A stretch of DNA of 64,000 nt, taken from assembly GCF_946479755.1 (NCBI RefSeq), contig NZ_CAMLHC010000012.1, positions 124,001 to 188,000 on the forward strand, read 5' to 3'. How positions within the stretch are numbered: position 1 is the stretch's first letter; every line of letters starts with the position of its first letter. Source of the DNA: an uncultured Chitinophaga sp. (GTDB lineage: Bacteria; Bacteroidota; Bacteroidia; Chitinophagales; Chitinophagaceae). Below the pieces are notes generated by a model. The model did not search any database. It was not told where the DNA came from and saw only the letters and a program-made list of their open reading frames with translations. Position numbers and translations under genes: made by a program. Shown piece after piece: positions 11,083 through 34,408 of this stretch.

Positions 11083-11778
11083 ATGAATGCAGCTTCTTTT
11101 TATGGGCAAGCCCCGAAACACCTGGTGGCAGTAGATTGTATCATCTTTGGTTTCGATGAAGGCAAGCTGAAGTTGTTGGTGATGAAGCGAAAGCTGGCCC
11201 CTATGGCCGGCGAATGGTCGCTGGTAGGCGGCTTTGTGCAGGAGGAAGAGAGCACCGACGACGCTGCAGCGAGGGTCCTCAAACTGACCACCGGCCTGGA
11301 AAATATCTATATGGACCAGCTGCATTGTTACGGAGAGGTAAACCGTGATACCGGCGCCCGGGTAATATCCGTAGCCTATTACGCACTGATCCGCATCAAA
11401 GACCATGACCGGCCGCTGGCACAGGAACATGGCGCCCACTGGCTGGAGCTGCACGAAATCCCCGCGCTCATATTCGACCACAACAGGATGATCAACGACG
11501 CGTTGGTACAACTGCGTAACAATGCGCATTTTCATCCTATCGGGTTTGAACTGCTGCCGGAGAAATTTACCTTGTCACAGCTCAGAAGCCTCTACGAAGA
11601 AATATACCAAAAGACACTTGATAAGCGTAACTTCAGAAAGAAAATACTATCATTGGACGTAATGGAGAAGCTGGAGGAAAAGGATAAGACCTCTTCCAAA
11701 AAAGGCGCGCACCTGTATCGTTTTGATCCCGCGCGGTATGAAGCACTGATGCGTAAAGGACTGGTGTTCGAGATATAG
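11083..11778 (+). CDS. Nudix-fold transcriptional regulator (NrtR/AraR-like)
   Basis: 231 residues: an N-terminal Nudix domain (about 10-140) and a C-terminal winged-helix region (about 155-231, with FTLSQLRSLYEEIYQKTLDKRNFRKKIL). This layout is that of NrtR/AraR-type Nudix-related regulators. The Nudix box at 50-72 keeps Gly50, Glu56, Arg64 and Gly71, but the three catalytic glutamates of REUxEE are Val65, Leu68 and Thr69. It is therefore almost surely not a hydrolase but a ligand-sensing repressor or activator. In Bacteroides a relative (AraR) senses a sugar. No target genes are adjacent in the same transcription unit, so its regulon is unknown; the sensor kinase array begins 84 bp downstream. 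Confidence 0.85.
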   Translation: MNAASFYGQAPKHLVAVDCIIFGFDEGKLKLLVMKRKLAPMAGEWSLVGGFVQEEESTDDAAARVLKLTTGLENIYMDQLHCYGEVNRDTGARVISVAYYALIRIKDHDRPLAQEHGAHWLELHEIPALIFDHNRMINDALVQLRNNAHFHPIGFELLPEKFTLSQLRSLYEEIYQKTLDKRNFRKKILSLDVMEKLEEKDKTSSKKGAHLYRFDPARYEALMRKGLVFEI

Positions 11779-11862: not shown

Positions 11863-13791
11863 ATGATAATCCTCAGACGATATATGCTGTTGCATATGTG
11901 CTGGTTGTTGTTTGTTTTCCCGACATTGCTGCATGGGCAGCATAAAGAGATCGGCAGGATTAAATCACAACTGCCGCACATTGGCGACAGCGTGACTTAC
12001 GTAGATGCCCTGAACAGACTGGCGGCGGTGTATCAGGCCTGTCAGCTGGACAGTTGCGGACGTTACGCGTCCATGGCGAGAGATATGGCCGTCCGTATCG
12101 GTTACCCCTCCGGTAAAGCGCGGGCCCTGCGCAACCTGGGAAATTATTATGCCCTCCGTCCCCATCGTTACCTCTCTTATCTTTTTTATAACGATGCCCT
12201 CGAAGAAAGCCGTAAAGCCGGTGATTCTGTCAATGTATCACAGGTGATGATGAACATCGGCATCTATCACTATTTTACGGGTAAACTTGCTTCGGCCAAT
12301 GATTATGTGGCACAGTCGCTGAAGCTCACGCGGGAACTGAAAGAAGACTCGCTGCACGCCCTGGGGCTGGGCAACTATTACGCCATCAATTATACCGACA
12401 GCAGCACCAAAGCGGCAGCAGCTACCGCTTTGTCTGAAGCTACCACGCTGGCAGAGCGCTACCGCGATACCCGGGAGCTGCTGTATATCCGGCTGCTGCT
12501 GGCCAACGAAGACTACCTGGCCGAACGTTTTGAAGCCGCCAAAAACAGGGTGCGGCAGGTGCTCGACACCGCCATCAGGGAAGGGTTTGAGTATTATGCT
12601 ATGCGTGCCTCGATGGAGCTGTCGGAATACAAAAGCCGGCTCGGGGAACCGGACTCGCTGATACATCTCCAGGATGCGGTATCACATGCTGTCGCCGGTG
12701 GATACATCGGTCTGCTGCTGCCGCAGGTAACACAGCTGTACCATTATTTCCAGCAGAAAAAAGACACGCTGCAGGCCGCCCGCTACAGCCGCATTGCGCT
12801 GAATATCATGCAACAGCAGCAAGATGATATGCAACAGGGAGAAATGGACTATATCGCCTATTCCCTGCAGGACCAGACACTGGATTCCCTGAAAATGCAG
12901 TCAGACCTGCAGCAGACGGCGCTGCAGAAAACGAGGCTGGCGCAGCGCTACTCGCAATACCTGTTCATTTTCGTGGTAGCTATTATCCTGCTGCTGATCG
13001 TGCTTACCTGGTTCCTGGTGCGCTCCTACCGTTCTTCCCGCCTGCGCTCCCAGCGCCTTGCCCGCGTGAAGACGGAGATCGCCGCTGCCAATGAAGTACT
13101 GAAGAAAAACGACGATTTCAAGAACAAACTGATCTCGCTGATTGCACATGATTTCAGGACGCCGTTGTATAACATAATCGATATTACCGGTTTTGTGAAT
13201 GAAGATATTCTAACCCCTGAAGATGCAACCAGTATGGTGATGGAAGTGGAACAAACCGCTACCGCCACCCTGACTGTTTTTGAAGAAATACTCAGCTGGA
13301 TGCGGACGCAGCTGTCGGGCTTTGTATACCGGCCGCATTCCTTTGTACTGGAAGATATGCTGGAGATGTCCGCCCGTAATGTGCAGCACCTGCTGCGCGA
13401 AAAAAATATCCGGCTGGAGCAGCAGGTGCCGGAAGGATTAACGGTGCAGGGCGACTTTGAAATGCTGCAGTTCATCCATCGTAATTTCCTGCATAACGCC
13501 ATCAAGTTCTCACCGGAAAATGGGGTGATAACGATAACGGCTATACGTAAAGATGGACACGTTGAAGTTTTTTTCCGTGACCAGGGGCCGGGCATTGACC
13601 CGGAGGTGCTGCCGGGGCTGTTTACCTACAACAGTGAAAGTTATGCCCGGAAGCGGTCCGGTAAGGGTGCAGGCCTGGCATTGATCATCTGCCGTGATTT
13701 TATTGATAAAATGGACGGGGACGCGGGCGCGCAGAATAACGAAGAAGGCGGAAGCACCTTTTTCTACCGGGTGCCGGAAATAGATGTTTAA
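11863..13791 (+). CDS. TPR-containing sensor histidine kinase, intact
   Basis: 642 residues. Signal peptide (about 1-25, ending LLHGQ), a periplasmic helical-repeat TPR-like region (about 30-350), one membrane segment (about 366-386), a coiled linker, then the kinase core. The H-box has the phosphoacceptor His429 in LIAHDFRTPL. The ATPase domain has Asn545 in the N-box (FLHNAIKFSP), Asp573 in DQGPGID, and the G2 loop GKGAGLAL. It is thus a complete membrane sensor kinase. No response regulator is encoded nearby. It is the first of three tandem paralogues, 15 bp before the second, so it probably shares their transcript. The signal sensed is unknown. Confidence 0.88.
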   Translation: MIILRRYMLLHMCWLLFVFPTLLHGQHKEIGRIKSQLPHIGDSVTYVDALNRLAAVYQACQLDSCGRYASMARDMAVRIGYPSGKARALRNLGNYYALRPHRYLSYLFYNDALEESRKAGDSVNVSQVMMNIGIYHYFTGKLASANDYVAQSLKLTRELKEDSLHALGLGNYYAINYTDSSTKAAAATALSEATTLAERYRDTRELLYIRLLLANEDYLAERFEAAKNRVRQVLDTAIREGFEYYAMRASMELSEYKSRLGEPDSLIHLQDAVSHAVAGGYIGLLLPQVTQLYHYFQQKKDTLQAARYSRIALNIMQQQQDDMQQGEMDYIAYSLQDQTLDSLKMQSDLQQTALQKTRLAQRYSQYLFIFVVAIILLLIVLTWFLVRSYRSSRLRSQRLARVKTEIAAANEVLKKNDDFKNKLISLIAHDFRTPLYNIIDITGFVNEDILTPEDATSMVMEVEQTATATLTVFEEILSWMRTQLSGFVYRPHSFVLEDMLEMSARNVQHLLREKNIRLEQQVPEGLTVQGDFEMLQFIHRNFLHNAIKFSPENGVITITAIRKDGHVEVFFRDQGPGIDPEVLPGLFTYNSESYARKRSGKGAGLALIICRDFIDKMDGDAGAQNNEEGGSTFFYRVPEIDV

Positions 13792-13806
13792 AAGGATACT
13801 GTCAGG

Positions 13807-15711
13807 ATGATAAAAGCGTTGAAGCGTAAAGGTTATATAGCAGCATTCGTGATACTGGGCTGTTTATTATTGCCGGTGCAGGAGAGCAGCGGCCAGGCAG
13901 CCATATTGCCCCGTTTGCAGCGTGACCTGGCGCAGCAGCAGGACAGCGCCGGTTATGTATCTGTATTGGGCAAGATCGGCGCGTTGTACGCCAGCATCCA
14001 CCTCGACAGCTCCTTTTATTACGCCCGCCAGGTACTGGAGATCGCCAGCCGCCGTCAGGACCTCAAAGGCATGGCAGACGCCAATAACATGCTGGGATGG
14101 TATTATACCGCTAAAACAGATTACAATGTAGGTATCCAGTATGCGTATAAGGCTTTGCTGCTCAATGCGCAGCTGGGCGATTCCGCGCAGATGGTCCGCT
14201 CGCTGAACATTATTTATGGCTGTTACAAAAACTCAGGCCACCCGGTAGAAGCCAATAATTATTTCTACCGTGCTTTTCATATGGCCAACCGCCTCCCGCC
14301 GGATAAAGACTCCATGGCGGCCACCATGCTGGTCAACTATGCCTGGCGCTTTTTCGGCGACAGCACTAAAACAGACTCTGTACGCCTGGTGCTGAGGAGG
14401 GCCGGCGCTATCCTCAAAAAATATCCCGACAGCCGGGCTGCTTTTTACGTCGCAGCATTTGAGGCCGATCTTATGGTGCAGGCAGGCAAAGGGAAAGCGG
14501 CAGAGGAACGGATTTACACCCTCGCTAACCTGGCCCGGCAAAAAGGGATGCCTTATGTAGCCATGGACATGTACGGCCGGCTATACGATTTTCAACGCCT
14601 GGGTTACTTTGCCGATTCTACCCGCTACCAGGAGCAGGCGTACGAAGTGGCGCGGCAGTCGGCCAGCATGGAACTGAACCTGTACTGGCTGGGACGGTTG
14701 TACGATTATTACCGTCACCATCAGCAACCGGAACGGGTGGTGTATTATGGCAACGAAATTATGCGGCTGGCCGCGAAGGACCGCTATCACAACAGTCAGC
14801 CCCAGGCCGCCTACATCGATTTTTTCCTGAAGGAAAAAAAGCTGGAAGCGCTGTCGCTCTCTACCCGGATGCAACAGCAGGAACTGGAAAAAGAGCTGGC
14901 AGAGAAAAAGAACCGCTCCCTCCTTGTGGGGGGACTATTGATCGTCATATTCCTGTTGCTGGCGTTACTGACCAGCCGGTACCTGCATTACCGCCGCTGG
15001 AAACAGCAGGAGAACGCGCTGGCGTTCAGTTATGTACAGCTGGCCAGAAACAACGCGGCGCTGACGGAGAACGATGTTTTTAAGAACAGGCTGATCAGTA
15101 TGCTGGCCACAGATTTCAGAACACCGCTGCATCATATCATCGCTGTGGCCGATCAGCTGAAGACCGGCACGCTCACGCAACCGGAGGTGGTAAGCCTGTT
15201 GAAGCAGATTGGTAACGCCTCCCGGAAAACACTGGATGCGTTCAACAATATCCTGAAGTGGCTGAAGCTGCAGCTGTCAGGCTTTATTTACAAGCCAGTC
15301 ACTACAGCGCTGCTGCCGGTGATTGCAGAGGCGCTGGAGCCGATGCAGGCGGAGATCCGGGACAAGCAGCTGACCATCGTGAACCGGGTAGGACCGCGGC
15401 TTACGGTGGTTGCAGATCCGGAGATACTGCAGCTGGTGAATGTGCAGTTGTTGCAGGTGGCTGTCAGCACCGCGCGACCGGGTACCCTGCTCCTGATCTC
15501 GTCATACGGGGAGAAGGGAAAAGTAACCGTGCGGTTGATGGCCGATGGCGGCGCCGCCACCCGTAAGTTGCTCGAAGAACTAAAAGACAAAGAACACAAT
15601 ATTTTTGCGTTAGGTATTATTATCAGCCGGGACTTTATGCAAAAGATGAAGGGAGGGCTCACCGTGGAAGAAGAGGCAGGTGGGTTCCTCATGATGGAGT
15701 ACACAATTTAA
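13807..15711 (+). CDS. Degenerate sensor kinase paralogue 1 (pseudokinase)
   Basis: 634 residues with the same plan as the preceding kinase: signal peptide, TPR-like periplasmic region, membrane segment at about 373-393, then a kinase-like module. In the H-box the phosphoacceptor His is Thr435 (LATDFRTPL). The ATP site is also lost: the N-box equivalent reads VNVQLLQVAVSTA without the Asn, the G1 aspartate motif is missing, and the G2 glycine loop is replaced by NIFALGIIISRDFM. The reading frame is long and clean, so it is maintained as a protein, not a decayed gene. Likely role is signal reception or control of a partner kinase by heterodimerisation; this is inference. Confidence 0.85.
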   Translation: MIKALKRKGYIAAFVILGCLLLPVQESSGQAAILPRLQRDLAQQQDSAGYVSVLGKIGALYASIHLDSSFYYARQVLEIASRRQDLKGMADANNMLGWYYTAKTDYNVGIQYAYKALLLNAQLGDSAQMVRSLNIIYGCYKNSGHPVEANNYFYRAFHMANRLPPDKDSMAATMLVNYAWRFFGDSTKTDSVRLVLRRAGAILKKYPDSRAAFYVAAFEADLMVQAGKGKAAEERIYTLANLARQKGMPYVAMDMYGRLYDFQRLGYFADSTRYQEQAYEVARQSASMELNLYWLGRLYDYYRHHQQPERVVYYGNEIMRLAAKDRYHNSQPQAAYIDFFLKEKKLEALSLSTRMQQQELEKELAEKKNRSLLVGGLLIVIFLLLALLTSRYLHYRRWKQQENALAFSYVQLARNNAALTENDVFKNRLISMLATDFRTPLHHIIAVADQLKTGTLTQPEVVSLLKQIGNASRKTLDAFNNILKWLKLQLSGFIYKPVTTALLPVIAEALEPMQAEIRDKQLTIVNRVGPRLTVVADPEILQLVNVQLLQVAVSTARPGTLLLISSYGEKGKVTVRLMADGGAATRKLLEELKDKEHNIFALGIIISRDFMQKMKGGLTVEEEAGGFLMMEYTI

Positions 15712-15736
15712 TACTGCAGTGTACCATTAAACGTAT

Positions 15737-17614
15737 ATGCGTAACTGTTACATCATCGCTTTACTGTCCCTGTTGAGCTGGCAGCTCATGGCGCAGACGC
15801 CGCAGCTGCCGGAACTGCAGCGGGAGCTGTCGCGCCAGCATGACAGCGCCGGCTATCTCGCGGTACTGGGCCGCATCAGCGCGTTGTATGCCGTGATAAA
15901 CGTAGACAGCAGCTTTCAATACGCCATAAAAGTACGGGACATGGCCGCAAGGCTGCACGATGCGAGGGGACAGGCAGACGCTAACGACCTGATGAGCTGG
16001 TATTACGCCCTGAAAACAGATTTTGGCGTGGCTGGCATCTATGCCTACCGGGCCCTCAAAATACACGAACAGCTGGGGGATTCTGCCCGGGTAGCCAAAA
16101 CGCTCAGTAATATTTACCTGTACTACCGCAACACCGGCCGGAAGGAAGACGCCAACAACTACTTCTACCAGGCGTTTAAGATGGCCGGCCGGTTGCCTCC
16201 GGACAATGATTCCGTATATGGGATCCTGTTAATCAACTACGTCATGCGTTTTTATAAAGACAGTACGCATGCGGACTCAGTGCATTGGGCATTAAAACGG
16301 GCACGGCAGGTAGTGGATAAATACCCGCGCTCCAAAATCGGTTTTTATATAGATGCTTATTCGCTGAACGACCTGGTACAACAGGGGCAGGGCAGGCAGG
16401 CCGAAGAAGCCATCTACCGGCTGGCAGATAACGCGTTGCGTGCAGGGATGCCTTATGTGGCCATGGACATGTATGGCCGGCTGGACGATTTTCCCCGCAT
16501 GGGTTACCATCCTGATACCGCCAGGTACCAGGAAAAGGCGTACCTGTTAGGAGTGCAAACCGGTAGCATTGAGTTGAACCTCTATTGGCTGGCACGACTA
16601 TACGATTATTACAAACAGAAAAAGGATAACGCCCGCATGGTGCAGTATGGCCGCGAGATCATGCAACTGGCTGCGGAGAAACGTTACCAGCCTAACGCCC
16701 ATTCCTTTGACTATATCGAGATTTTCCTGAAAGAGAAAGCCGTATCCGACCTGGCGCAGCAGAATAAGCATCAGCAACAGGTGCTGGCAGCTGAACTGGC
16801 GGCGTCGGACAATAACCGGTTGCTGGCGGTAGGCGTGCTGATCGTGCTGGTGCTGTTCCTGGTGGTGGCTTTTGAACGGTATTGGCATTACCAGCGGTTA
16901 AAGCAGCAGGATGAAGCGCTGTTGCGTAGCTACCGGGATATGGCTGCACTCCATGCGGCGCTCACAGAAACAGACGCTTTTAAAAACAAGCTGATAAGTA
17001 TACTGGCCCGTGATTTCAGGGGGCCATTGGTACATCTGACCGAGGTAGCGGCGCGGTTTAAATCAGGCAAGCTGTCGAAAGCGGAAATGGCCATCTGGTT
17101 GAAGCATATCAGCGCCACCTCCGGAAAAGTGCTGGAGGTTTTCGACAATGTCCTCAAATGGCTGCGGCTGCAATTGTCCGGTTACCGTTATGAGCCGGTG
17201 CGCTGCCGGCTGCTGCCGCTGATGCAGAGTGCCCTGGGGCCGCTGGAAGCGGAGCTGGAAAAGAAGCGGCTGTTGGTGAAGAACTATATTCCGGAAAATG
17301 TATCGGCACTGGCAGACGAGGAGATGCTGAAGCTGGTGAACATACAGCTGTTGCAGATAGCCGTGGCCGTAGCCGTGACGGGCAGTATGCTGGAAATCAC
17401 CGTTGACCAGACGATGGGCCAAACGGAAATGCACATCAAAGTAAAGACAGGGGAGGATACCCGTTTTGTGCTGGCCGGACTGGAAAACTGGCAGGATAAC
17501 GGGCTGGCGTTAGGGCTGGTGATCAGCCGGGACCTGATGAAGATGATGCAGGGCTATATTATAGCAGAAGGCCAGGAACTTTCGTACCTGGCCTTCGGGT
17601 ATATTTTACCGTGA
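15737..17614 (+). CDS. Degenerate sensor kinase paralogue 2 (pseudokinase)
   Basis: 625 residues, closely similar to the previous protein through the TPR region (both have ADAN, YAY+AL, EANNYFY-like and MDMYGRL words) and clearly a tandem duplicate. Signal peptide 1-20 (ends LMAQ), membrane segment about 361-381. The H-box His is Arg425 (LARDFRGPL), and the N-box, G1 and G2 motifs are missing, as in its neighbour. It ends 4 bp before the convergent fabH stop. Since both degenerate copies lack kinase residues but differ at the His position, the core was probably already free to drift before or soon after duplication. Confidence 0.85.
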   Translation: MRNCYIIALLSLLSWQLMAQTPQLPELQRELSRQHDSAGYLAVLGRISALYAVINVDSSFQYAIKVRDMAARLHDARGQADANDLMSWYYALKTDFGVAGIYAYRALKIHEQLGDSARVAKTLSNIYLYYRNTGRKEDANNYFYQAFKMAGRLPPDNDSVYGILLINYVMRFYKDSTHADSVHWALKRARQVVDKYPRSKIGFYIDAYSLNDLVQQGQGRQAEEAIYRLADNALRAGMPYVAMDMYGRLDDFPRMGYHPDTARYQEKAYLLGVQTGSIELNLYWLARLYDYYKQKKDNARMVQYGREIMQLAAEKRYQPNAHSFDYIEIFLKEKAVSDLAQQNKHQQQVLAAELAASDNNRLLAVGVLIVLVLFLVVAFERYWHYQRLKQQDEALLRSYRDMAALHAALTETDAFKNKLISILARDFRGPLVHLTEVAARFKSGKLSKAEMAIWLKHISATSGKVLEVFDNVLKWLRLQLSGYRYEPVRCRLLPLMQSALGPLEAELEKKRLLVKNYIPENVSALADEEMLKLVNIQLLQIAVAVAVTGSMLEITVDQTMGQTEMHIKVKTGEDTRFVLAGLENWQDNGLALGLVISRDLMKMMQGYIIAEGQELSYLAFGYILP

Positions 17615-17618
17615 AAAA

Positions 17619-18629
17619 TTATTTGCCGTATTTTTCGCCGTCGTAAGCCCATTTGATATAGCTGGCGCCCCAGGTGAAACCACCGCCAAAAGCGGCCATG
17701 ATAAGGTTATCGCCTTTCTTCAGCTGTTTTTCGTAGTCCCACAGGCACAAAGGAATGGTGCCCGCGGTGGTGTTGCCATAGCGGTGGATGTTCATCATTA
17801 CCTTTTCTTCCGGCAGGTTGATGTACTGCGCGGTAGCTGCGATGATACGTTTGTTGGCCTGGTGCGGTACGAGCCATGCGATGCTTTCCGCAGTGAGGTT
17901 GTTGCGCTCGAGGATGCCGTTGGCAGCTTCGGACATATTGGAAACAGCGTATTTGAACACCATTTTACCTTCCTGGTACACAAAGTGTTCGCGGTTCTGC
18001 ACTGTTTCGAGGGTAGCCGGTTTTACGGAGCCGCCGGCTTTCATGTGCAGGTATTCGCGGCCGTGGCCATCGCTTTTCAGGATGCTGTCCACCACGCCGT
18101 ATCCTTCATGGTTAGGCTCCAGCAGTACGCCGCCGCCGCCGTCACCGAAGATGATGCAGGTAGTTCTGTCTGTATAGTCCATGATAGCGCTCATTTTGTC
18201 GGCGCCAATCACCATTACTTTCTGATAACGGCCACTTTCAATGAACCGTGCGCCGGTGTCCAGTGCATACAGGAAGCCGGAGCAGGCAGCGCTGATGTCG
18301 AAACCGAATGCATTTTTTGCACCGATTTTATCTGTTACAACATTGGCTGTGGCGGGGAAGGTCATGTCGGGGGTTACGGTGGCAACGATCAGCAGGTCGA
18401 TGTCTTCGGGGGTGATGCCTCTCTTTCTGCAGATTTCAAGGGCGATCGGTACACATAAGTCGGAAGTACCTTTTCCTTCTCCTTTGAGAATTCTTCTTTC
18501 GGAGATGCCTGTTCTGGTTAAAATCCACTCATCTGTTGTGTCTACCAGTTTTTCCAGTTCCTGATTGGTCAGTACGTAGTCAGGAACATATCCACCCACC
18601 GCTGTAATAGCGGCCGTAATTTTATTCAT
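17619..18629 (-). CDS. fabH: 3-oxoacyl-ACP synthase III
   Basis: Condenses an acyl-CoA starter with malonyl-ACP to begin fatty acid synthesis. 336 residues. The Cys-His-Asn triad is visible: Cys116 in SAACSGFL, His in VPHQANKRI, Asn in HRYGNTTAG. The start NKITAAITAVGGYVP and RTGISERR are typical of KASIII. Bacteroidota FabH enzymes often accept branched starters, which cannot be judged here. It is transcribed divergently from ruvA. Confidence 0.96.
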   Translation of the reverse strand: MNKITAAITAVGGYVPDYVLTNQELEKLVDTTDEWILTRTGISERRILKGEGKGTSDLCVPIALEICRKRGITPEDIDLLIVATVTPDMTFPATANVVTDKIGAKNAFGFDISAACSGFLYALDTGARFIESGRYQKVMVIGADKMSAIMDYTDRTTCIIFGDGGGGVLLEPNHEGYGVVDSILKSDGHGREYLHMKAGGSVKPATLETVQNREHFVYQEGKMVFKYAVSNMSEAANGILERNNLTAESIAWLVPHQANKRIIAATAQYINLPEEKVMMNIHRYGNTTAGTIPLCLWDYEKQLKKGDNLIMAAFGGGFTWGASYIKWAYDGEKYGK

Positions 18630-19446: not shown

Positions 19447-22400
19447 TTGGCAAGAAGGACTTATTATGGCGCTTTTGCAGTAATAGGAATTGTATCTTTT
19501 ATCATTGTTGACACCGCCGCAAGGGATCGATCCGGGAATTTTCATTTTTTGAACAGAACGAGCTGGAAGTCGGACACCACAATTACTGGTAATACCAAAA
19601 TCGATACTACCGGGAAGAAAGATACCTTGAAATATCCCCTTAAGGACAGGCGCGGCCCCAGTATCTCTGACCCGGCGTCCAGGAACGCTATTGACCTGAA
19701 CGACCCGGCAAATATCAACAAAAAAGTAGAATACGATCCCGTTACCAGGCAATACACTGTTACCGAAAAAATCGGCAACCAGAACTACCGTAACCCCACT
19801 TATATGAACTTCGACGAGTTCTATAAGCTCCAGTCGGCACAAAGCGAAAAAAACTACTGGCAGAAAAGGGCCAGCGCCCTGGGTAACCTCAACCAACGAG
19901 GCAACGGACCGCTGCTGTATAACGGTAACAACCTGTTTGACCGCATCTTCGGCGGCAGTAAAGTAGATATCCGCCCGCAAGGTAGCCTGGACCTTACCTT
20001 CGGCTACCAGGGCCAGAATATCAAAAATCCCGTACTGGTAGAACAAGCCCGTAAAAACAGCGGGTTCAACTTCGACATGGGTATCAACATGAACGTCACC
20101 GGCAGGATAGGGGATAAACTGAAACTCATCACCAACTATAACACCCAGTCCACCTTCGATTTCGAAAACCAGGTGAAACTGGAATACACCGGCTATAACG
20201 ACGAAATTATCAAGAAGATAGAAGCCGGTAACGTGAGCTTCCCCCTGCGTAGCTCCCTGATCTCCGGTATCCAGTCCCTCTTCGGGGTGAAAACACAACT
20301 GCAGTTCGGCCGCCTTACCGTGACCAGCGTGCTGTCTAACCAGAAATCGCAGAAACAAAACCTCATGCTCAAAGGCGGCACCATGGTGCAGGACTATAAC
20401 ATCCGGGCCGATGAATATGAAGACAACCGCCACTTCCTGCTGGCGCAGTTCTTCCGCGATACCTTCAACTACGCCATGTCCAACCTCCCCATCATCCGCT
20501 CCCTGTCCAACATTACCCGGATAGAGGTGTGGGTGACGAATAAAACAGGGGCCACCACCCAAACCCGCGACATCGTGGGCCTGATGGACCTCGGGGAATA
20601 CAAACCCTACAACAGCAATATCAGGGTAAACACTACCTCCCATCTGCCGGACAGGGCCACGAACGACCTGTATCAGAACCTGATCCGCGATGCCGCCAGC
20701 CGCAACACCAGCATCGTCGTCAGCCGGTTGCTGGCGCTGGGCCTTAAACCCGTTTCGGAATTTGAGAAAACATTCGCCCGCAAACTGGACTCCACCGAGT
20801 ATACCATCAACAAACAACTGGGCTTCATCTCCCTTAACCAACAGCTGCAGCCGGACGAAGTACTGGCGGTAGCTTATCAATATACCTATAACGGCCGTAC
20901 CTACCAGGTGGGTGAATTCTCGCAGGACGTACCGCCGGACCAGAACAATAGCGCCAACTCCCCGGTGCTGTTCCTGAAATTGCTCAAAGCCACGTCCGCT
21001 CGTCCGGTATTGCCTATCTGGAAACTGATGATGAAAAACATCTACGCCACCGGCGCCTTCCAGGTAAACAAGGAAGACTTTAAAATGGACGTGTTCTATA
21101 AAGACCCCGGTGGGGAAAACAGGCCTCCCAGCGATAAACGTTACCTGCCAGACGGTAAAAACGAATACGCCGGCGCCCCTATCATCACCGTATTAAACCT
21201 GGATCGCCTTAACAATCAGCTGGACCCCCAGCCCGACGGTGTGTTTGACTACGTGGAAGGTTACACGATCAACTCCATGATGGGTAAGATCATGTTCCCG
21301 ATGCTGGAACCGTTTGCCGATGGTCTGAAAAAAGCATTCGGCGGAGACGCCGCCCTCGAAAAACAATACCTGTACCGGGTACTGTACGACTCCATCAAAG
21401 TAGTGGCGCAGCAGTTCCCGCAGCTGAACCGCTATGTGATCCGCGGTTCCTATAAGTCGGCCAACTCGTCGGAAATTAACCTTGGCGGGGGGATCACTAT
21501 CCCGCCCGGCTCCGTGACGGTGACCGCCGGCGGCCAGATGCTGCGCGAAAACGTGGACTACATCATCGACTATAACCTCGGCAGGCTTAAAATCATCAAC
21601 GGCGGCGTGCTCAACTCCGGCGTGCCGATCAACGTACAGTTTGAAAACAACGCCTTGTTCGGGCAGCAGGTCCGTAACTACTTCGGTACCCGCCTCGATT
21701 ACCTGGTGAATGATAAACTCAGTATCGGCGGTACCATCGTCCGCATGAGCGAACGGCCCTACTATCAGAAAGTGAACTACGGCGAAGACCCTATCAAGAA
21801 CACCATGGTAGGCCTGGACGTGAACTACGCTTCCGAATGGAAAGGCCTCACGCGTTTCCTCGATAAACTGCCCAACTACAGCACTACCGCGCCTTCCAGC
21901 ATCCTGTTCACCGGTGAGGTGGCCCGCCTGTTCCCGGGTCACAGTAAGTTGATCAACCAGGCCGGCAGCAAACAGGGTACTGCTTTTATCGATGATTTCG
22001 AAGGGGTGAAAAGCGGTTATGACCTGAAATTCCCGGCTACCAGCTGGGCGCTGGCCTCCACTCCCAAAGGAGCCACCAATTCGTCCGGTACGGTGCTGTT
22101 CCCGGAAGCGGAAGAAAGTAACGTCTTTGAATATGGTAAGAACAGGGCTAAACTGGCCTGGTATATCCTGGAGCCTACGCTCCAGCTGCCAAAATCGCCT
22201 AACCTGCCGGCAGGCATCTCCCTGGATGATCAGTCAGACCCCCGTGTAAGGCTCGTATACCAGAAAGAAGTGTTCCGCAACAGGTCCACCGACTTCGGCC
22301 AAAGCCAGCTCAGTACCCTTGACCTGGCCTATTATCCAACAGAAAGAGGCCCGTATAACTTCACCAGCAGCCCGCTGGCCATGGACCGCAATGGTAAACT

Positions 22401-25400
22401 GGCCCGCCCGAGGTCCAGGTGGGGTGGTATCATGCGCGCCATCGACAACAGCGACTTCGAAACAGCCAATATCGAATATATCGAGTTCTGGATACAGGAC
22501 CCCTTCATCAAAACACCCGGCAGCAACGGTGGTTCCCTCTACTTCAACCTGGGTAACGTTTCTGAAGACATCCTCAAAGACTCCAAGAAATTCTTCGAAA
22601 ACGGTATGCCCGATCCCCGGCAGGAACCGAATAAGATCGATTCCTCCAAATGGGGCCGCCAGCCGAAGTTCCAGCAGCAGATCACGCAGGCCTTCGACAA
22701 CGATCCCAACATCCGCGCTTACCAGGACGTAGGATATGACGGTCTGAAATCTACCGATGAAGCAGCCTTCTACAGAAGTTACATGGACACGCTGTCACAA
22801 AACTTCGGTGGGTCGCCGGTATTCCAGCAGGCGCAGCGAGATCCGTCCAACGACGACTACAAGCACTATCGTAACGCCGATTACGACGCTGCCCGCGCCG
22901 GGATCCTGGAACGTTATAAAAACTACAGCAACCCAGAAGGCAACTCACCGGTGTCCGATCCGAAATCTACCTTCTCCACCGCGGCCACCAACATCCCCGA
23001 GTCAGAAGACCTGAACAGGGATAATACCATGAACGAAACGGAAGAATACTTCCAGTACCGGGTAGACCTTAAACCGGGCATGGCTGTTGGTTCCAACTTT
23101 ATCGTGGATAAAATAGAAGCGCCGGTAGACCTGCCCAATGGCCAGAAAACGAACGAAACATGGTACCAGTTTAAAATTCCGCTGAACCAGTTCAACGCAA
23201 AAGTGGGCAACATCCCCGACTTCAAGTCCATCCGCTTTATGCGTATGTTCATGACGGACTTTGCAGAGCCGGTGGTAGTGCGTTTTGCCAAACTGGAACT
23301 GGTCCGCAGCCAATGGCGCCGTTATATGTACGAACTGAGGCCCGGTGATCCTGTGCCTTTGGACCAGACCACCACCTTCAACTCCTCCGCTGTAAATATT
23401 GAGGAGAACTCCTCCCGCAGCCCTATTCCTTACGTGCTGCCGCCGGGAGTGGTAAGACAGAATACCATCAGCACCAACAATACCACCCTGCAGCTGAACG
23501 AACAGTCGCTGTCCGTTCAGGTATGTAACCTGCAGGACGGTGAGGTACGTGCCCTGTATAAGACGCTCAACATGGACCTGCGCCAGTACAAGAAAATGGA
23601 AATGTACATGCACGCAGAAGCCGTGGGCTCCGCCACCGCGCTGAAAGACGGTCAGGTGCAAGCCGTGATCCGCATCGGTAGCGATTTTGTGAGCAACTAC
23701 TACGAATACCGCATTCCGCTGAAAGTAACGGCATGGAATTCCAAAGCGCCGGTCGAAATCTGGCCCGACGGTAACAACATGCAGCTCATCATGGAACGCC
23801 TGAGCCAGCTGAAACAGAAACGCAATATGTGCGATTCCTGCTCTCCGCTCCAGGCATATCCCATGACACCGGTGGCCGACGAATTCGGCAACTTCATGTC
23901 CGTAGTAGGTAACCCCAGCCTGGGCGATGCCCGCACCATGATGATCGGTGTCCTGAACCCGAAAGACGACGGTCTGCCGCGTTGCGCCGAAGTATGGTTC
24001 GATGAACTGCGGTTGTCAGACTTCGACGAAAAAGGTGGTTACGCCGCCCTGGCAAGGGTAGACGTGCAGCTGGCCGATCTGGGTACCATCTCCGTGTCCG
24101 GCAACATGCACACCGCCGGCTTCGGCAACATCGACCAGCGCGTGAATGAACGCTTCCGTGATAACTTCCTGCAATACGACGCCGCTGCCAACCTGGACCT
24201 GGGTAAACTGCTGCCAAAAAGCACAGGTATGTCTATCCCGGTATACGCCGGCTATTCACAGGCTGTCAGCAACCCGGAATATGATCCTTACGATCTTGAT
24301 ATCAAACTGAAAGATAAACTGGCACTGGCGAGGTCCCGGTGGGAAAGGGACTCGATGCGTAAAAACGCGCAGGACTTTACCTCTATCACCAGCCTGAACT
24401 TTACCAACGTCCGGAAACTCAATACACGACAGGGTAAACGTCACCTGTGGGATATCGAAAACTTCGATATCAGCTACTCGTTCTCGCAGATCAACCGGCA
24501 TAATCCGCTTATCCAGAGCGACCTGCTGACGAAGCACCGTGGCGGCATCGGCTATAACTACTCCGGTCAGCCGAAATACCTGGAGCCGTTCAAAAAACTG
24601 ATCAAAACCAAAACACACTGGCTGGACCTCATACGGGATTTCAATGTCAACTATGTGCCGTCTATCATCAGCTTCCGGGCAGACATTATCCGGCAGTTTG
24701 GCGCGTCGCGTATCCGTAACGTTGGCGGAGATGTGAAATACCAGTTGCCCGAAACGTATGATAAATACTTCACGTTCGACCGGTATTACACCCTGAAGTG
24801 GGACATCACCCGCAGTATTAATATTGAATTTAATGCGGTGAACAACTCCCGCGTGGATGAGCCTGCGGGCAGGATCAATACCGGCGCGAAGAAAGACACC
24901 ATCTGGCGTAACTTCTTCAAAGGCGGCCGTTCGGTGAACTACATGCATAACGCTAACTTTACCTATACGCTGCCTACCGCCAAGTTCCCGGCCCTGAGCT
25001 GGACCAACGTGGCCTTCGGCTACAGCACGGAATACCGCTGGACCGGCGCTTCCCGTCTGGCGCTCTACCTGGGTAACGCCATCGAGAACAGCATGCAGAA
25101 AACACTAACGGCAGAGTTCAAGTTTGTGGAACTGTATAACAAGTCCAAGTTCCTCCGGCAGGTAAATGCCCGCAAACCGGTGTCCAACAACAATAATAAT
25201 CAGAACAAAAACAATAACAATAACAACAACCAACAGAATAATCAGCAGAACAACAACCAGTCGTCCGGAGAGGAGATTTCCCCCTGGATAAAAGCGGTGT
25301 TGAAACCGCTGATGGCCCTGAAGCGGGTAGGCTTCAACTATAACGAGAACGCCGGTACCCGTTTGCCTGGTTACCTGGACAGCGCCAAGCTGGTGGGGAT

Positions 25401-26736
25401 GAACTGGCAGTCGATGGCGCCGGGCCTCGGTTTTGTGCTGGGCAAACAACCCGATAAAAAATGGCTGGATGATTTTGCGAATCGCGGACTGATCACGAAA
25501 GACCCGTCGCTGAACATACAGTTCCAGCAGCAGTACACCCAACGTTGGGATTTACAGGCGCAACTGGAACCGTTCAACGATCTGCGTATCGATCTGAGCA
25601 TGACCAAGTCGTTTACCAAAACACATACGGAACTGTTCAAGAGCATGCAGGATTCTACCGGCGCTGATCTTGGCTTCCAGCACCTGAGCCCGTACGACGC
25701 CGGTGGTTTCGAAATCTCCTACATCGCTATTAAAACGATGTTCGGCAGGATCAATACGGCTAACGGCGTGTCGGAAACGTTCCGCAACTTTGAAGCATAC
25801 CGGAATATCATTTCCCAGCGGCTGGGCGCGTCCAACCCGTATAACAAAGACCCGGGCATTCCGTCAGGCGATCCTAAAGATCCTACTTACGCTTACGGCT
25901 ATACGCGATATGCACAGGACGTGCTGATCCCGGCTTTCCTGGCAGCGTACACCGGTAAATCGCCCGAGAGCATAGGACTGTTGAACGGGCCTGGTAATAC
26001 TGTGAAGAGCAATCCGTTTAAAAGTTATATGCCTAAACCGAACTGGCGTGTCACGTACAATGGTTTGACCAAACTGGAGCCATTCCGCAGCTTCCTGACC
26101 AACTTTACGCTGACACATGGTTATGTTGGTACATTGTCCATGAACTCTTATAATACTTCCATGTATTATGAAGATCCCAGGCTGGCGGGTTACCCCGCGT
26201 TCAGGGATACGCTGTCCGGTAACTACTATCCGTACTTCCTGGTGCCTAACCTGACGCTGACGGAGCAATTCTCTCCGCTGCTGGGGGTTGACCTCACCTT
26301 TACCAACAGTCTCAATGCGCGGCTGGAATACCGGAAGAGCCGTTCTCTCAGTCTCAGTTTGATCGATTACCAGTTGACCGAGCTGCGCTCCAGTGAAATT
26401 GTGGTAGGCGCCGGTTACCGGGTGAGAGGGCTGCAGTTGCCCTTTGCCGTGGGTAAAAACGGTGGCAAACGTCTTCAGAACGATCTTAACTTCCGGCTGG
26501 ACCTGAGCTTCCGGGACGACAAGACCGCCAATAACCGCCTGGATGCGGACCTGGTTATTCCTACCAGCGGCCAGAAGGTGGTAGGCATTGCGCCGTCCAT
26601 CGACTATGTGGTGAACAACAGGCTGAACCTGCGTTTCTTCTACGACCGCAGGCAAACGATTCCTGTTATTTCCACCGCTTATCCGATTACCAATACCAGG
26701 GGTGGTATCACCTTCCGGTTCGTATTGTCGCAATAG
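19447..26736 (+). CDS. sprA: T9SS outer membrane translocon protein SprA (Sov)
   Basis: Very large (2429 residues) outer membrane barrel that is the translocation channel of the type IX secretion system and is needed for gliding and for export of proteins with T9SS sorting domains. Length fits SprA/Sov. The first 25 residues form a hydrophobic signal segment. Starts at TTG 19447: the frame has a stop at 19411 and no ATG before residue about 118. Around residues 1914-1938 lies an Asn/Gln-rich tract (N, Q and a K only), an unusual low-complexity insertion in a barrel protein. The end has the aromatic strand pattern RGGITFRFVLSQ, read as GGITFRFV, of outer membrane barrels. ruvA is 33 bp upstream. 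Confidence 0.95.
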   Translation: MARRTYYGAFAVIGIVSFIIVDTAARDRSGNFHFLNRTSWKSDTTITGNTKIDTTGKKDTLKYPLKDRRGPSISDPASRNAIDLNDPANINKKVEYDPVTRQYTVTEKIGNQNYRNPTYMNFDEFYKLQSAQSEKNYWQKRASALGNLNQRGNGPLLYNGNNLFDRIFGGSKVDIRPQGSLDLTFGYQGQNIKNPVLVEQARKNSGFNFDMGINMNVTGRIGDKLKLITNYNTQSTFDFENQVKLEYTGYNDEIIKKIEAGNVSFPLRSSLISGIQSLFGVKTQLQFGRLTVTSVLSNQKSQKQNLMLKGGTMVQDYNIRADEYEDNRHFLLAQFFRDTFNYAMSNLPIIRSLSNITRIEVWVTNKTGATTQTRDIVGLMDLGEYKPYNSNIRVNTTSHLPDRATNDLYQNLIRDAASRNTSIVVSRLLALGLKPVSEFEKTFARKLDSTEYTINKQLGFISLNQQLQPDEVLAVAYQYTYNGRTYQVGEFSQDVPPDQNNSANSPVLFLKLLKATSARPVLPIWKLMMKNIYATGAFQVNKEDFKMDVFYKDPGGENRPPSDKRYLPDGKNEYAGAPIITVLNLDRLNNQLDPQPDGVFDYVEGYTINSMMGKIMFPMLEPFADGLKKAFGGDAALEKQYLYRVLYDSIKVVAQQFPQLNRYVIRGSYKSANSSEINLGGGITIPPGSVTVTAGGQMLRENVDYIIDYNLGRLKIINGGVLNSGVPINVQFENNALFGQQVRNYFGTRLDYLVNDKLSIGGTIVRMSERPYYQKVNYGEDPIKNTMVGLDVNYASEWKGLTRFLDKLPNYSTTAPSSILFTGEVARLFPGHSKLINQAGSKQGTAFIDDFEGVKSGYDLKFPATSWALASTPKGATNSSGTVLFPEAEESNVFEYGKNRAKLAWYILEPTLQLPKSPNLPAGISLDDQSDPRVRLVYQKEVFRNRSTDFGQSQLSTLDLAYYPTERGPYNFTSSPLAMDRNGKLARPRSRWGGIMRAIDNSDFETANIEYIEFWIQDPFIKTPGSNGGSLYFNLGNVSEDILKDSKKFFENGMPDPRQEPNKIDSSKWGRQPKFQQQITQAFDNDPNIRAYQDVGYDGLKSTDEAAFYRSYMDTLSQNFGGSPVFQQAQRDPSNDDYKHYRNADYDAARAGILERYKNYSNPEGNSPVSDPKSTFSTAATNIPESEDLNRDNTMNETEEYFQYRVDLKPGMAVGSNFIVDKIEAPVDLPNGQKTNETWYQFKIPLNQFNAKVGNIPDFKSIRFMRMFMTDFAEPVVVRFAKLELVRSQWRRYMYELRPGDPVPLDQTTTFNSSAVNIEENSSRSPIPYVLPPGVVRQNTISTNNTTLQLNEQSLSVQVCNLQDGEVRALYKTLNMDLRQYKKMEMYMHAEAVGSATALKDGQVQAVIRIGSDFVSNYYEYRIPLKVTAWNSKAPVEIWPDGNNMQLIMERLSQLKQKRNMCDSCSPLQAYPMTPVADEFGNFMSVVGNPSLGDARTMMIGVLNPKDDGLPRCAEVWFDELRLSDFDEKGGYAALARVDVQLADLGTISVSGNMHTAGFGNIDQRVNERFRDNFLQYDAAANLDLGKLLPKSTGMSIPVYAGYSQAVSNPEYDPYDLDIKLKDKLALARSRWERDSMRKNAQDFTSITSLNFTNVRKLNTRQGKRHLWDIENFDISYSFSQINRHNPLIQSDLLTKHRGGIGYNYSGQPKYLEPFKKLIKTKTHWLDLIRDFNVNYVPSIISFRADIIRQFGASRIRNVGGDVKYQLPETYDKYFTFDRYYTLKWDITRSINIEFNAVNNSRVDEPAGRINTGAKKDTIWRNFFKGGRSVNYMHNANFTYTLPTAKFPALSWTNVAFGYSTEYRWTGASRLALYLGNAIENSMQKTLTAEFKFVELYNKSKFLRQVNARKPVSNNNNNQNKNNNNNNNQQNNQQNNNQSSGEEISPWIKAVLKPLMALKRVGFNYNENAGTRLPGYLDSAKLVGMNWQSMAPGLGFVLGKQPDKKWLDDFANRGLITKDPSLNIQFQQQYTQRWDLQAQLEPFNDLRIDLSMTKSFTKTHTELFKSMQDSTGADLGFQHLSPYDAGGFEISYIAIKTMFGRINTANGVSETFRNFEAYRNIISQRLGASNPYNKDPGIPSGDPKDPTYAYGYTRYAQDVLIPAFLAAYTGKSPESIGLLNGPGNTVKSNPFKSYMPKPNWRVTYNGLTKLEPFRSFLTNFTLTHGYVGTLSMNSYNTSMYYEDPRLAGYPAFRDTLSGNYYPYFLVPNLTLTEQFSPLLGVDLTFTNSLNARLEYRKSRSLSLSLIDYQLTELRSSEIVVGAGYRVRGLQLPFAVGKNGGKRLQNDLNFRLDLSFRDDKTANNRLDADLVIPTSGQKVVGIAPSIDYVVNNRLNLRFFYDRRQTIPVISTAYPITNTRGGITFRFVLSQ

Positions 26737-32326: not shown

Positions 32327-34255
32327 TCAGCGGATGAGGGTGACAGTCCCTTTTTTGAGTATCTCCCTGCCGTTGAAATCAGTGCCCTGCAATATCCACA
32401 GGTAAGTGTCTACCGATGCGGGCATTCCTTTGTACGTACCGTCCCATCCATTTCTGAAGTCAGTGGAGGAATAAATTTCCTGCCCCCATCGGTTGAATAT
32501 CCGGAAGAATTTATAATGGACGATGCCTACGGGGATGAACCTGAAACGGTCGTTGATACCATCGCCGTTGGGGGTAAACGCATTAGGGATATACATCTCA
32601 GGCCCGGTGTAGTATTTCACGCTGATGGTATCATAGCCGGTACAGCCCTGCTGGTTGGATACCCGCAGCACATAGGTGATGTCTTTGTTGTAGTTCAGCA
32701 GCGGATGTGCGGTGCCGGGATCGCTCAAGCCATCGGAAGGCTGCCAGGAATAAATATCTCCGCCGCTGCCCTGCATCACCAGCGTTTGCCCTTTGGCAAG
32801 GATGGTATCGTTGCCGGCGAAGGGTATTACTTCGTATATGCGTACATTTTGGGTGACGGTTTTTTCACATTGTTTGTCCGTATGCAGCGTCAGGGAAACC
32901 GTATAGACGTTGCCTTTATCGAACCGGTGCAGTATGTTCCGTTCATCGCCGGTCACCACTACGCTGTCGGCTATCCCGAATTCCCAGGTGCGGCTGGTAA
33001 TGTGACCATACTGGTAGGAAGAAGTGTCGTTGAAGCTAATGGGGTTTTCCTTACAGAGGCCGGCTGTGGTGAAACCGGCACGGAGCCCCGGATAGTTGCG
33101 GACTTCCCCGGTAGTGCTGTCCCGGCAGGTAAGCGTGGGATTAACGACCAGTTTTACTTTGTACACTCCCGTGTCGGGATACTGGTGAAAGAAGATGGTT
33201 TTGGTGTCTGTCACGGTATCGGTGCCGTCCCCGAATGTCCAGTGATAGGTGGAAGTGTAACCGGCTTCGCTGTAGTTGGGAAAGGCCACCTGCAGCTCCG
33301 GTGATTCCGCACAGTTGCTGAGCACAGCAGGAAAACCGGCCACGATTCTGGTGGTACAGTCAAACACGGTGAGCAGGATGTCTTTACTATGCGTGCCCAG
33401 CAGCCTTTTCGTTACCCGGTCATATTCGTTTACGCAAACCGTGATCACGAACTTGCCGGCCCTGTCGGGCGTGCAGGTAATCATGCCCTGGTTGTTGATC
33501 GAAATGGCCGGACTGCCGCCCATAGGGTTGGCGCCGGAATAAGGCGGAATATAGCGTACGGTGGAGTTATAAGGCGGCGGCGTGGTGGAATTGGTTTCGT
33601 TATTGACAGTGCCGTCTGTTAACGCGCTGCAAAGCTGATAAGTGAGGCTGTCGCCGTCTTCGTCATAGGCGGCGTAGTTGATTTTAAACGGCAGCTTGTT
33701 ACAAATAACAATAGCGGAATCTTTATCGAAGTAGGCGCTGTTATTGTTTGGCCTGGATTCCATTCCCGGAATCACTGTATAGTAGGTAGAGCCTTCATGT
33801 TCGGAGTCATAGATGTTGGTCAGTTTTTCACCGCGGCAGCAGCGCTGTGATGCCACATAATAACCGCCCGGTATGGGCGCCAGTTCTATAGTGGCTGTAT
33901 AGAAGGCGACTTCCAGGTGTTGCGCCTGCGGCGCGAGGCAGGGGTTTTTCAGCGTATCTATCAGGGGAACCACCTTGCTGATATAAAGATATACGGAAGA
34001 CATCACCCGTTCCCCGCCGGCGGTATACACATTGGCCACGACCGGATTTTCAAACCGGTCAATACAACCCTGCCGGTCGCCGCAGGTAAAGTCTGCGTCG
34101 CGGTATAGTTTAAGGGTGATGAGATAACGGTAGCGGGAATTATCTCCACTCATACCTACTGTCTTGTAATAAATTTCGCCACCAATGATGTGGTAAGCAG
34201 CTGTGTGGAGATACATTAAACAACAGCCGAGAACCAATAACAAGGTGCTCTTCAT
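32327..34255 (-). CDS. PKD-domain surface protein with gliding-associated C-terminal domain
   Basis: 642 residues with a signal peptide (about 1-20) followed by HIIGGEIYYK, a conserved N-terminal start in this group. Middle part has a PKD domain (YHWTFGDGTDTVTD) and a second Ig-like fold. The last about 85 residues are the gliding-motility-associated C-terminal domain, with YIPNAFTPNGDGIND, FRIFNRWGQEIY and NGWDGTYKG, a type B T9SS sorting signal. It is therefore a probable T9SS cargo displayed on or released from the cell surface, exported through SprA. Function unknown, adhesion is plausible. Paralogous to the next gene upstream. Confidence 0.87.
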   Translation of the reverse strand: MKSTLLLVLGCCLMYLHTAAYHIIGGEIYYKTVGMSGDNSRYRYLITLKLYRDADFTCGDRQGCIDRFENPVVANVYTAGGERVMSSVYLYISKVVPLIDTLKNPCLAPQAQHLEVAFYTATIELAPIPGGYYVASQRCCRGEKLTNIYDSEHEGSTYYTVIPGMESRPNNNSAYFDKDSAIVICNKLPFKINYAAYDEDGDSLTYQLCSALTDGTVNNETNSTTPPPYNSTVRYIPPYSGANPMGGSPAISINNQGMITCTPDRAGKFVITVCVNEYDRVTKRLLGTHSKDILLTVFDCTTRIVAGFPAVLSNCAESPELQVAFPNYSEAGYTSTYHWTFGDGTDTVTDTKTIFFHQYPDTGVYKVKLVVNPTLTCRDSTTGEVRNYPGLRAGFTTAGLCKENPISFNDTSSYQYGHITSRTWEFGIADSVVVTGDERNILHRFDKGNVYTVSLTLHTDKQCEKTVTQNVRIYEVIPFAGNDTILAKGQTLVMQGSGGDIYSWQPSDGLSDPGTAHPLLNYNKDITYVLRVSNQQGCTGYDTISVKYYTGPEMYIPNAFTPNGDGINDRFRFIPVGIVHYKFFRIFNRWGQEIYSSTDFRNGWDGTYKGMPASVDTYLWILQGTDFNGREILKKGTVTLIR

Positions 34256-34408
34256 GTTTCGGGGTACTACTATCTGAATTTAACAAAAAAAAAGCAGCCC
34301 CGGTTCAATCCGGCAAAGTATTATTTCCCTTTACTACAGTGGGTTTGAGGTGAATTGATTACATGCAATTAAATATCAAAATACCTAATGGATTACCTGT
34401 CAGCAGCT

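Follow-up and report, generated by a model that had tools for sequence, protein, structure and literature searches.

Three tandem genes for related sensor proteins

The stretch analysed here (the window, 64,000 nt from an uncultured member of Chitinophaga, a genus of soil bacteria) contains three consecutive genes for related membrane proteins, named A, B and C (Table 1), of which A encodes an intact sensor histidine kinase with a tetratricopeptide repeat (TPR) sensor, and B and C encode paralogues that have lost the catalytic residues. The genes are separated by 15 bp (A-B) and 25 bp (B-C) and contain no internal stops, and the three clean 1.9-kb frames, together with the presence of orthologues of all three in eight further genomes, indicate that the trio is more than a chance arrangement. 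Protein B is 95% identical to a C. oryzae protein, and further relatives of it occur in C. eiseniae, C. fulva, C. varians, C. qingshengii and C. solisilvae.

Each protein has one strong membrane segment (A 368-386, B 371-389, C 362-380), and the sensor side of all three is likely to be periplasmic, judging from the signal peptide and the single membrane segment. A preliminary description of this DNA had given A, B and C a common architecture of signal peptide, TPR-like sensor, membrane segment and kinase-like module; the membrane segment and TPR region are indeed present in all three, but of the N-terminal hydrophobic stretches, those of A and B passed a simple hydropathy cut and that of C did not, so that the signal peptide of C is a call by eye only. 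Protein C also has an extra hydrophobic stretch (530-556) within its dead catalytic module. In Pfam, A matched HATPase_c above the cut-off (4.8e-19) and HisKA weakly (0.018; 15.5 against a curated cut-off of 26.9), B matched HisKA only, and weakly (1e-3), and the scan of C gave no kinase domain. The best NCBIfam match of each protein was FimS (NF053520), which spans the kinase module in all three, with scores (129.6, 66.3 and 51.3 bits for A, B and C) that are far below the curated cut-off of 600 and place them outside the family as defined.

Protein A carries every residue expected of a HisKA/HATPase_c kinase, namely the phosphoacceptor His429, the N-box residues N541 and N545, the motif D573-x-G575-x-G577, and G602 and G604. 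At the aligned phosphoacceptor position B has Thr435 and C has Arg425, and both lack the two N-box Asn residues, D573, G577 and G604, with a leftover Gly at the G575 column in B and at the G602 column in C, and a few of the ATP-lid columns 596-600 deleted in both. Neither protein thus has the phosphoacceptor His or the ATP site of a HisKA/HATPase_c kinase, which bears out the preliminary description in its statements that only A keeps His429, Asn545 and the Gly loops, and that B and C have Thr and Arg at the His position and no ATP site. Both B and C still carry the signature of the dimerisation and histidine phosphotransfer (DHp) domain along with the membrane segment and TPR region, and in the predicted structure of B the fold of the catalytic and ATP-binding (CA) domain is kept, with the kinase region of RetS (PDB 7N0E) among the best Foldseek matches and DivL (PDB 4q20) among the structural matches. 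A kept transmitter fold with lost catalytic residues is what characterises a histidine pseudokinase, and B and C are referred to as such below.

Table 1. Genes of the A-B-C locus and its flanking markers in the window
Feature	Position	Strand	Remarks
A, intact TPR-TM-HisKA-HATPase sensor histidine kinase (TM, transmembrane segment)	11863..13791	+	642 aa; His429, Asn541/Asn545, DxGxG 573-577, G602/G604
B, pseudokinase paralogue of A	13807..15711	+	634 aa; Thr435 at His position, ATP site lost, catalytic fold retained in model
C, second pseudokinase paralogue	15737..17614	+	625 aa; Arg425 at His position, ATP site lost; groups with B
AraR/NrtR-like Nudix-winged helix-turn-helix (wHTH) regulator, upstream neighbour	11083..11778	+	locus marker, 53/53 genomes
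FabH-like gene, convergent, downstream of C (presumed FabH from sequence likeness)	17619..18629	-	locus marker, 52/53 genomes (one contig stops before)

Occurrence of the locus in the genus

Protein C was used as query against 79 Chitinophaga genomes, with up to 16 candidates scored per genome, and 80 regions were fetched from these genomes for locus comparison; the genus counts given here are among the matches listed. The same locus was present in 53 of the 79 genomes, with the gene order DinB - AraR/Nudix - kinase - pseudokinase(s) - FabH (reverse strand) - RuvA. The upstream marker is found at all 53 loci (1.5 kb distant in L077), and the downstream marker is missing only where the L071 contig ends; it lies about 4 kb off in L090, and in L125 and L126 another kinase-like gene separates it from the pseudokinase. 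DinB was not found at the L095-L097 loci. The intervening gene (L125:2498-4669 and L126:2492-4660) encodes a protein of 722-723 aa with intact kinase motifs from a different subfamily.

The preliminary description spoke of a three-gene signal relay. This is not the basic unit: one kinase with one pseudokinase is the usual form (45/53 genomes), and the three-gene form, seen in eight of the 53 (L051-L058) and in the window, is a late elaboration. Five second loci elsewhere in the genome repeat the order of kinase and pseudokinase (L060, L062, L064, L067 and L078, the last with two pseudokinases), and a pseudokinase partner adjoins the kinase throughout the kinase clade, in the window as in all 58 loci fetched. 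A family-wide search at 1e-30 (195 family genomes, up to 6 candidates scored in each) gave matches in nine genomes, three of them already in the genus set; the six new ones (L131-L136), all outside the genus, have a single kinase with all motifs kept as the only family gene in the fetched stretch. A separate tandem pair of kinase-like genes (L075:4961-8862) belongs to a more distant subfamily; each gene keeps the His and has Asn at N545, and tandem duplication thus need not yield a dead copy.

Residues lost and kept in the pseudokinases

Residues were counted after leaving out L128_1-3 (broken) and L125_3, L126_3, L075_1-2, L129_1 and L130_1 (other kinase subfamilies). All 59 paired kinases, the window's A included, have His429, N541, N545, D573, G575, G577 and G604, and 58 have G602. 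Among the 69 pseudokinases N541, N545 and D573 are never present, and Gly is left at G575 in 9, at G577 in 3, at G602 in 8 and at G604 in 3. The His position is occupied by Asn (25), Arg (23), His (12), Thr (7) or Ser (2). Orthologues of B have Thr (7) or Ser (2) and those of C have Arg (9/9), so the residues singled out in the preliminary description are largely kept within the window's lineage but not genus-wide, where Asn and His also occur. Asp430, next to the lost His, is present in 68/69 pseudokinases, with Glu in the remaining one. From these residues B and C are predicted to be unable to phosphorylate, and most members should not be phosphorylatable at the His site.

The 12 pseudokinases that combine a His with a dead catalytic domain would fit a role in which the phosphoryl group of A takes an alternative path through the partner, whose DHp domain is phosphorylated in trans, as proposed for FasC of group A Streptococcus, which needs H246 and has a dispensable kinase domain (PMC12675982). 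The other 57, including B and C of the window, have no His at the site, and the Thr/Ser of B, although conserved in 9/9, is replaced by Asn, Arg or His elsewhere, which makes this route highly improbable.

None of the 69 pseudokinase frames is interrupted, and the sole family copy found broken is a single kinase (L128:3848-5752, genome G066), split into three frames of 320, 256 and 108 aa. The 18 intact single kinases of the genus (L103-L120) keep the His and both N-box Asn residues, but have Asn for D573 in 18/18, where six outgroup kinases have Asp. Due to this replacement they are not textbook kinases, and the Asn for Asp in DxGxG is an odd, conserved change of the ATP site.

Phylogeny and selection

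Two trees were constructed, one from the DHp and CA part and one from full-length proteins minus eight catalytic columns, the latter with six outgroups; both are quick trees with Shimodaira-Hasegawa-like approximate likelihood ratio test (SH-aLRT) support and no bootstrap, and in the DHp and CA tree long end branches, many of them pseudokinases, were flagged. The pseudokinases form one clade in both (SH-aLRT 99 for DHp and CA, 100 for full length), as do the paired kinases (94 and 98). The single pseudokinase clade in both trees speaks against a separate decay of the catalytic site lineage by lineage, and that reading was rejected. As to where the 18 single kinases stand relative to the duplication, the full-length tree contained no split for paired kinases plus pseudokinases, for the single kinases or for these plus outgroups. 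Proteins B and C group with the single pseudokinase of C. solisilvae (99, DHp and CA tree), which indicates that they arose by a later duplication of a pseudokinase; C. solisilvae either split off before this duplication or lost one copy. The residue at the His position changed at least 8 times on the tree, with at least 4 changes between His and not-His, and since loss of the N-box and D-box is universal and loss of the His is patchy, the ATP site was probably lost first.

The ratio of non-synonymous to synonymous substitution rates (dN/dS) was calculated by the Nei-Gojobori method, in which values with dS over 1.5 are saturated. For whole genes, the window and its two nearest relatives gave 0.035-0.061 (A), 0.055-0.060 (B) and 0.053-0.061 (C), and for the catalytic modules 0.08-0.12 in the dead B and C and 0.04-0.09 in A. 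Ten pairs of the window's lineage gave 0.04-0.24 for the dead modules, with C the least constrained, and 13 of 14 pairs from other lineages gave 0.04-0.30; the L100/L101 pair is too similar for an estimate in the pseudokinase module, and its kinase module gave 0.85 on a near-zero dS. These ratios indicate that the dead modules of B and C are under purifying selection, in proteins that are kept and orthologous across species, in line with the preliminary description, which took the clean frames as a sign that both are retained. The lost catalytic residues, and the exchange of the His for several others, might be expected of decaying duplicates of A, but such decay is already refuted and retains next to no credence, because the orthologues are uninterrupted, synteny is conserved, dN/dS does not exceed 0.30 in any pseudokinase domain for which it could be estimated, and the pseudokinases form one old clade. 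The signs of decay named in the preliminary description, copies missing or interrupted in close relatives and modules drifting neutrally, were thus not observed.

In one clade of six (L121-L126) the pseudokinase alone has lost its TPR sensor, and at L127:4724-7167 most of the sensor is gone from both the kinase (438 aa) and the pseudokinase (351 aa), with both partners at full length in the sister locus L076. That B and C serve mainly as periplasmic TPR proteins, for ligand capture or as an envelope scaffold, with the cytoplasmic module as a folded remnant, is improbable, given that L121-L126 went the opposite way, keeping the cytoplasmic module without the TPR region, and that the dead module is under purifying selection.

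A putative kinase-pseudokinase sensor unit

That related species have kept the arrangement intact suggests a regulatory role for the dead copies, as partners of the live kinase. We consider it probable, though well short of certain, that A works with the paralogues downstream of it as one sensor unit of kinase and pseudokinases, in which the dead copies pair with A via their DHp domains and tune it, as in FasB/FasC, RocA/CovS and RetS/GacS; the control of A through heterodimers that the preliminary description considered is plausible. Proteins B and C would be made together with A and reside in the same membrane, where they may pair with A through the DHp helices as a heterodimer or higher oligomer, and signals read by their TPR sensors may set the balance between autokinase and phosphatase activity of A. 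Since B and C have no target His and cannot carry out ATP chemistry, the activity of a mixed dimer would depend on how A phosphorylates: a trans mechanism would leave the dimer silent, a cis mechanism half-active. The target of A would then be a response regulator whose gene lies elsewhere.

The first two genes overlap or are at most 21 bp apart in 57/58 fetched loci, although the overlaps depend on the chosen start. Covariation of branch rates, calculated on 42 of 54 loci (7 sensor-less loci and 5 without a control gene were left out), was highest for kinase and pseudokinase among 15 pairs (0.76; TPR-TPR 0.69), and this pair still ranked first among 21 pairs (0.66, interval 0.48-0.79; TPR-TPR 0.57; A-DinB 0.54) upon addition of SprA. 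This is suggestive of coupling between kinase and pseudokinase; it is not proof and is not relied on here.

Several observations weigh against such a unit. The covariation interval overlaps that of A-DinB (0.34-0.68), and A, the pseudokinase and DinB are the fast genes of the comparison. The DHp domain has low confidence in both monomer models (predicted local distance difference test about 46-65). The locus is lacking in 26 of the 79 genomes: a single family kinase is present at another locus in 18 of these and the broken kinase (L128) in one, and seven gave no match better than 2e-20 (their regions were not fetched). No receiver domain was detected in the scanned neighbours of A, with orphan regulators elsewhere in the genomes not searched for, and 20 selected open reading frames (ORFs) of the window contained neither a receiver nor a further kinase. 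Ten neighbour genes at other family loci (five beside the single kinase L104 and five at second loci) also lacked a receiver; they encode PNPOx, Exo_endo_phos, AA_kinase, an extracytoplasmic function (ECF) sigma factor, cNMP-binding, SnoaL, aldo/keto reductase and HipA_C proteins, and two had no match. Finally, kinases and pseudokinases differ in the DHp face that directly follows the His, so that separate homodimers fit as well.

Homodimers of B and C are the premise of another explanation, in which the dead transmitter binds a response regulator or other protein and relays its state to A or elsewhere, as in DivL. This would agree with the retention of the DHp and a folded catalytic domain when chemistry is impossible, with the near-invariant Asp430 and with the structural match to DivL, which has been described as a kinase with an output domain that turned into an input sensor (PMC4211667). 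Against it stand the lack of a regulator gene beside the locus and the fact that every fetched locus pairs them tightly with one kinase, which is better explained by direct contact. The residues following the His help to face the response regulator, and their divergence between kinases and pseudokinases also speaks against this explanation, which we regard as possible but rather unlikely.

Among the neighbours scanned, the ECF sigma factor gene (L062:8777-9304) directly follows a second-locus kinase-pseudokinase pair, with a cNMP-binding protein in the same place in L060. Elsewhere in the window, 32327-37054 encodes a pair of large PKD proteins that carry a type IX secretion signal domain (CHU_C), and a 2429-aa ORF at 19447-26736 is taken to be SprA-like.

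Relation to known systems

The principle of control of a kinase by a pseudokinase is already known, and the arrangement is less unfamiliar than the preliminary description supposed, with precedents in FasB/FasC, RocA/CovS, RetS/GacS and DivL. The rocA gene is unlinked to covRS, RetS and GacS are hybrid kinases encoded at separate loci, and RetS has C-terminal receiver domains and a different sensor type. DivL has Tyr at the His position and PAS sensors, and is not known to have a tandem kinase.

A tandem kinase-like pair with a proposed pseudokinase occurs in group A Streptococcus, where two sensor kinase-like genes, fasB and fasC, share a transcript with the regulator gene fasA, and where FasB and FasC formed heterodimers but not homodimers in a two-hybrid assay, FasC needing its His but not its kinase domain (PMC12675982). 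The Fas sensors have six TM segments and FasA adjoins them, in contrast to the TPR sensors here, which have mostly lost the His and have no adjoining regulator gene in the window, where a convergent gene follows C and a receiver-less Nudix-wHTH gene precedes A. RocA of the same species is a pseudokinase with a degenerate CA domain and a dispensable His that co-precipitates with CovS and is proposed to enhance it, although a two-hybrid test in the same study gave no such contact; it is an accessory protein with a sensor of six TM segments and not a tandem paralogue (PMC7028121). For RetS and GacS of Pseudomonas aeruginosa a DHp-DHp heterodimer interface, formed in place of the homodimer, has been solved (PMC12148439, PDB 7N0E). 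Proteins A, B and C end after the CA module, with no receiver domain in Pfam. DivL of Caulobacter shares with B and C a pseudokinase transmitter of DHp-CA fold, and controls another kinase (PMC4211667). FimS of Porphyromonas gingivalis likewise joins a periplasmic TPR sensor to a transmitter, but partners the regulator FimR (PMC11053733), and A, B and C score far below its family cut-off. In Corynebacterium glutamicum a ChrS pseudokinase variant with a broken CA domain alters signalling of a paralogous kinase; it originated in laboratory evolution, and the heterodimers reported are those of the native proteins, none having been seen with the truncated form (PMC9491836).

In open-licence papers, searched by title and start of abstract, no such pair was described for Chitinophaga or Bacteroidota. 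What appears to be new is a TPR-sensor kinase-pseudokinase unit at one locus in 53 genomes of one genus, with the dead subunit duplicated in the window's lineage. Taking all parts together, an obligately hetero-oligomeric envelope sensor, built from a live kinase and one or two dead ones, may operate in much of the genus. The dead subunit would be ancestral to the clade and present in every member seen, its duplication in one lineage (B and C, with different His-site residues) would have given a three-input sensor, and the sensor would have been stripped from the dead subunit in a clade of six and from both subunits in one species. Within the reach of the searches, such a pair would be new to Bacteroidota. 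This combined reading is tentative, and we hold it with slightly more doubt than confidence.

Few kinase-pseudokinase pairs were found in print, and these are from single model species. The loci described here, from harmless soil bacteria, constitute a natural series of 53 paired loci, in which the His is lost by stages and partners are duplicated or lack the sensor, together with single-kinase relatives, which makes the role of a dead histidine kinase, and the parts of it that are needed, testable by comparison and gene removal.

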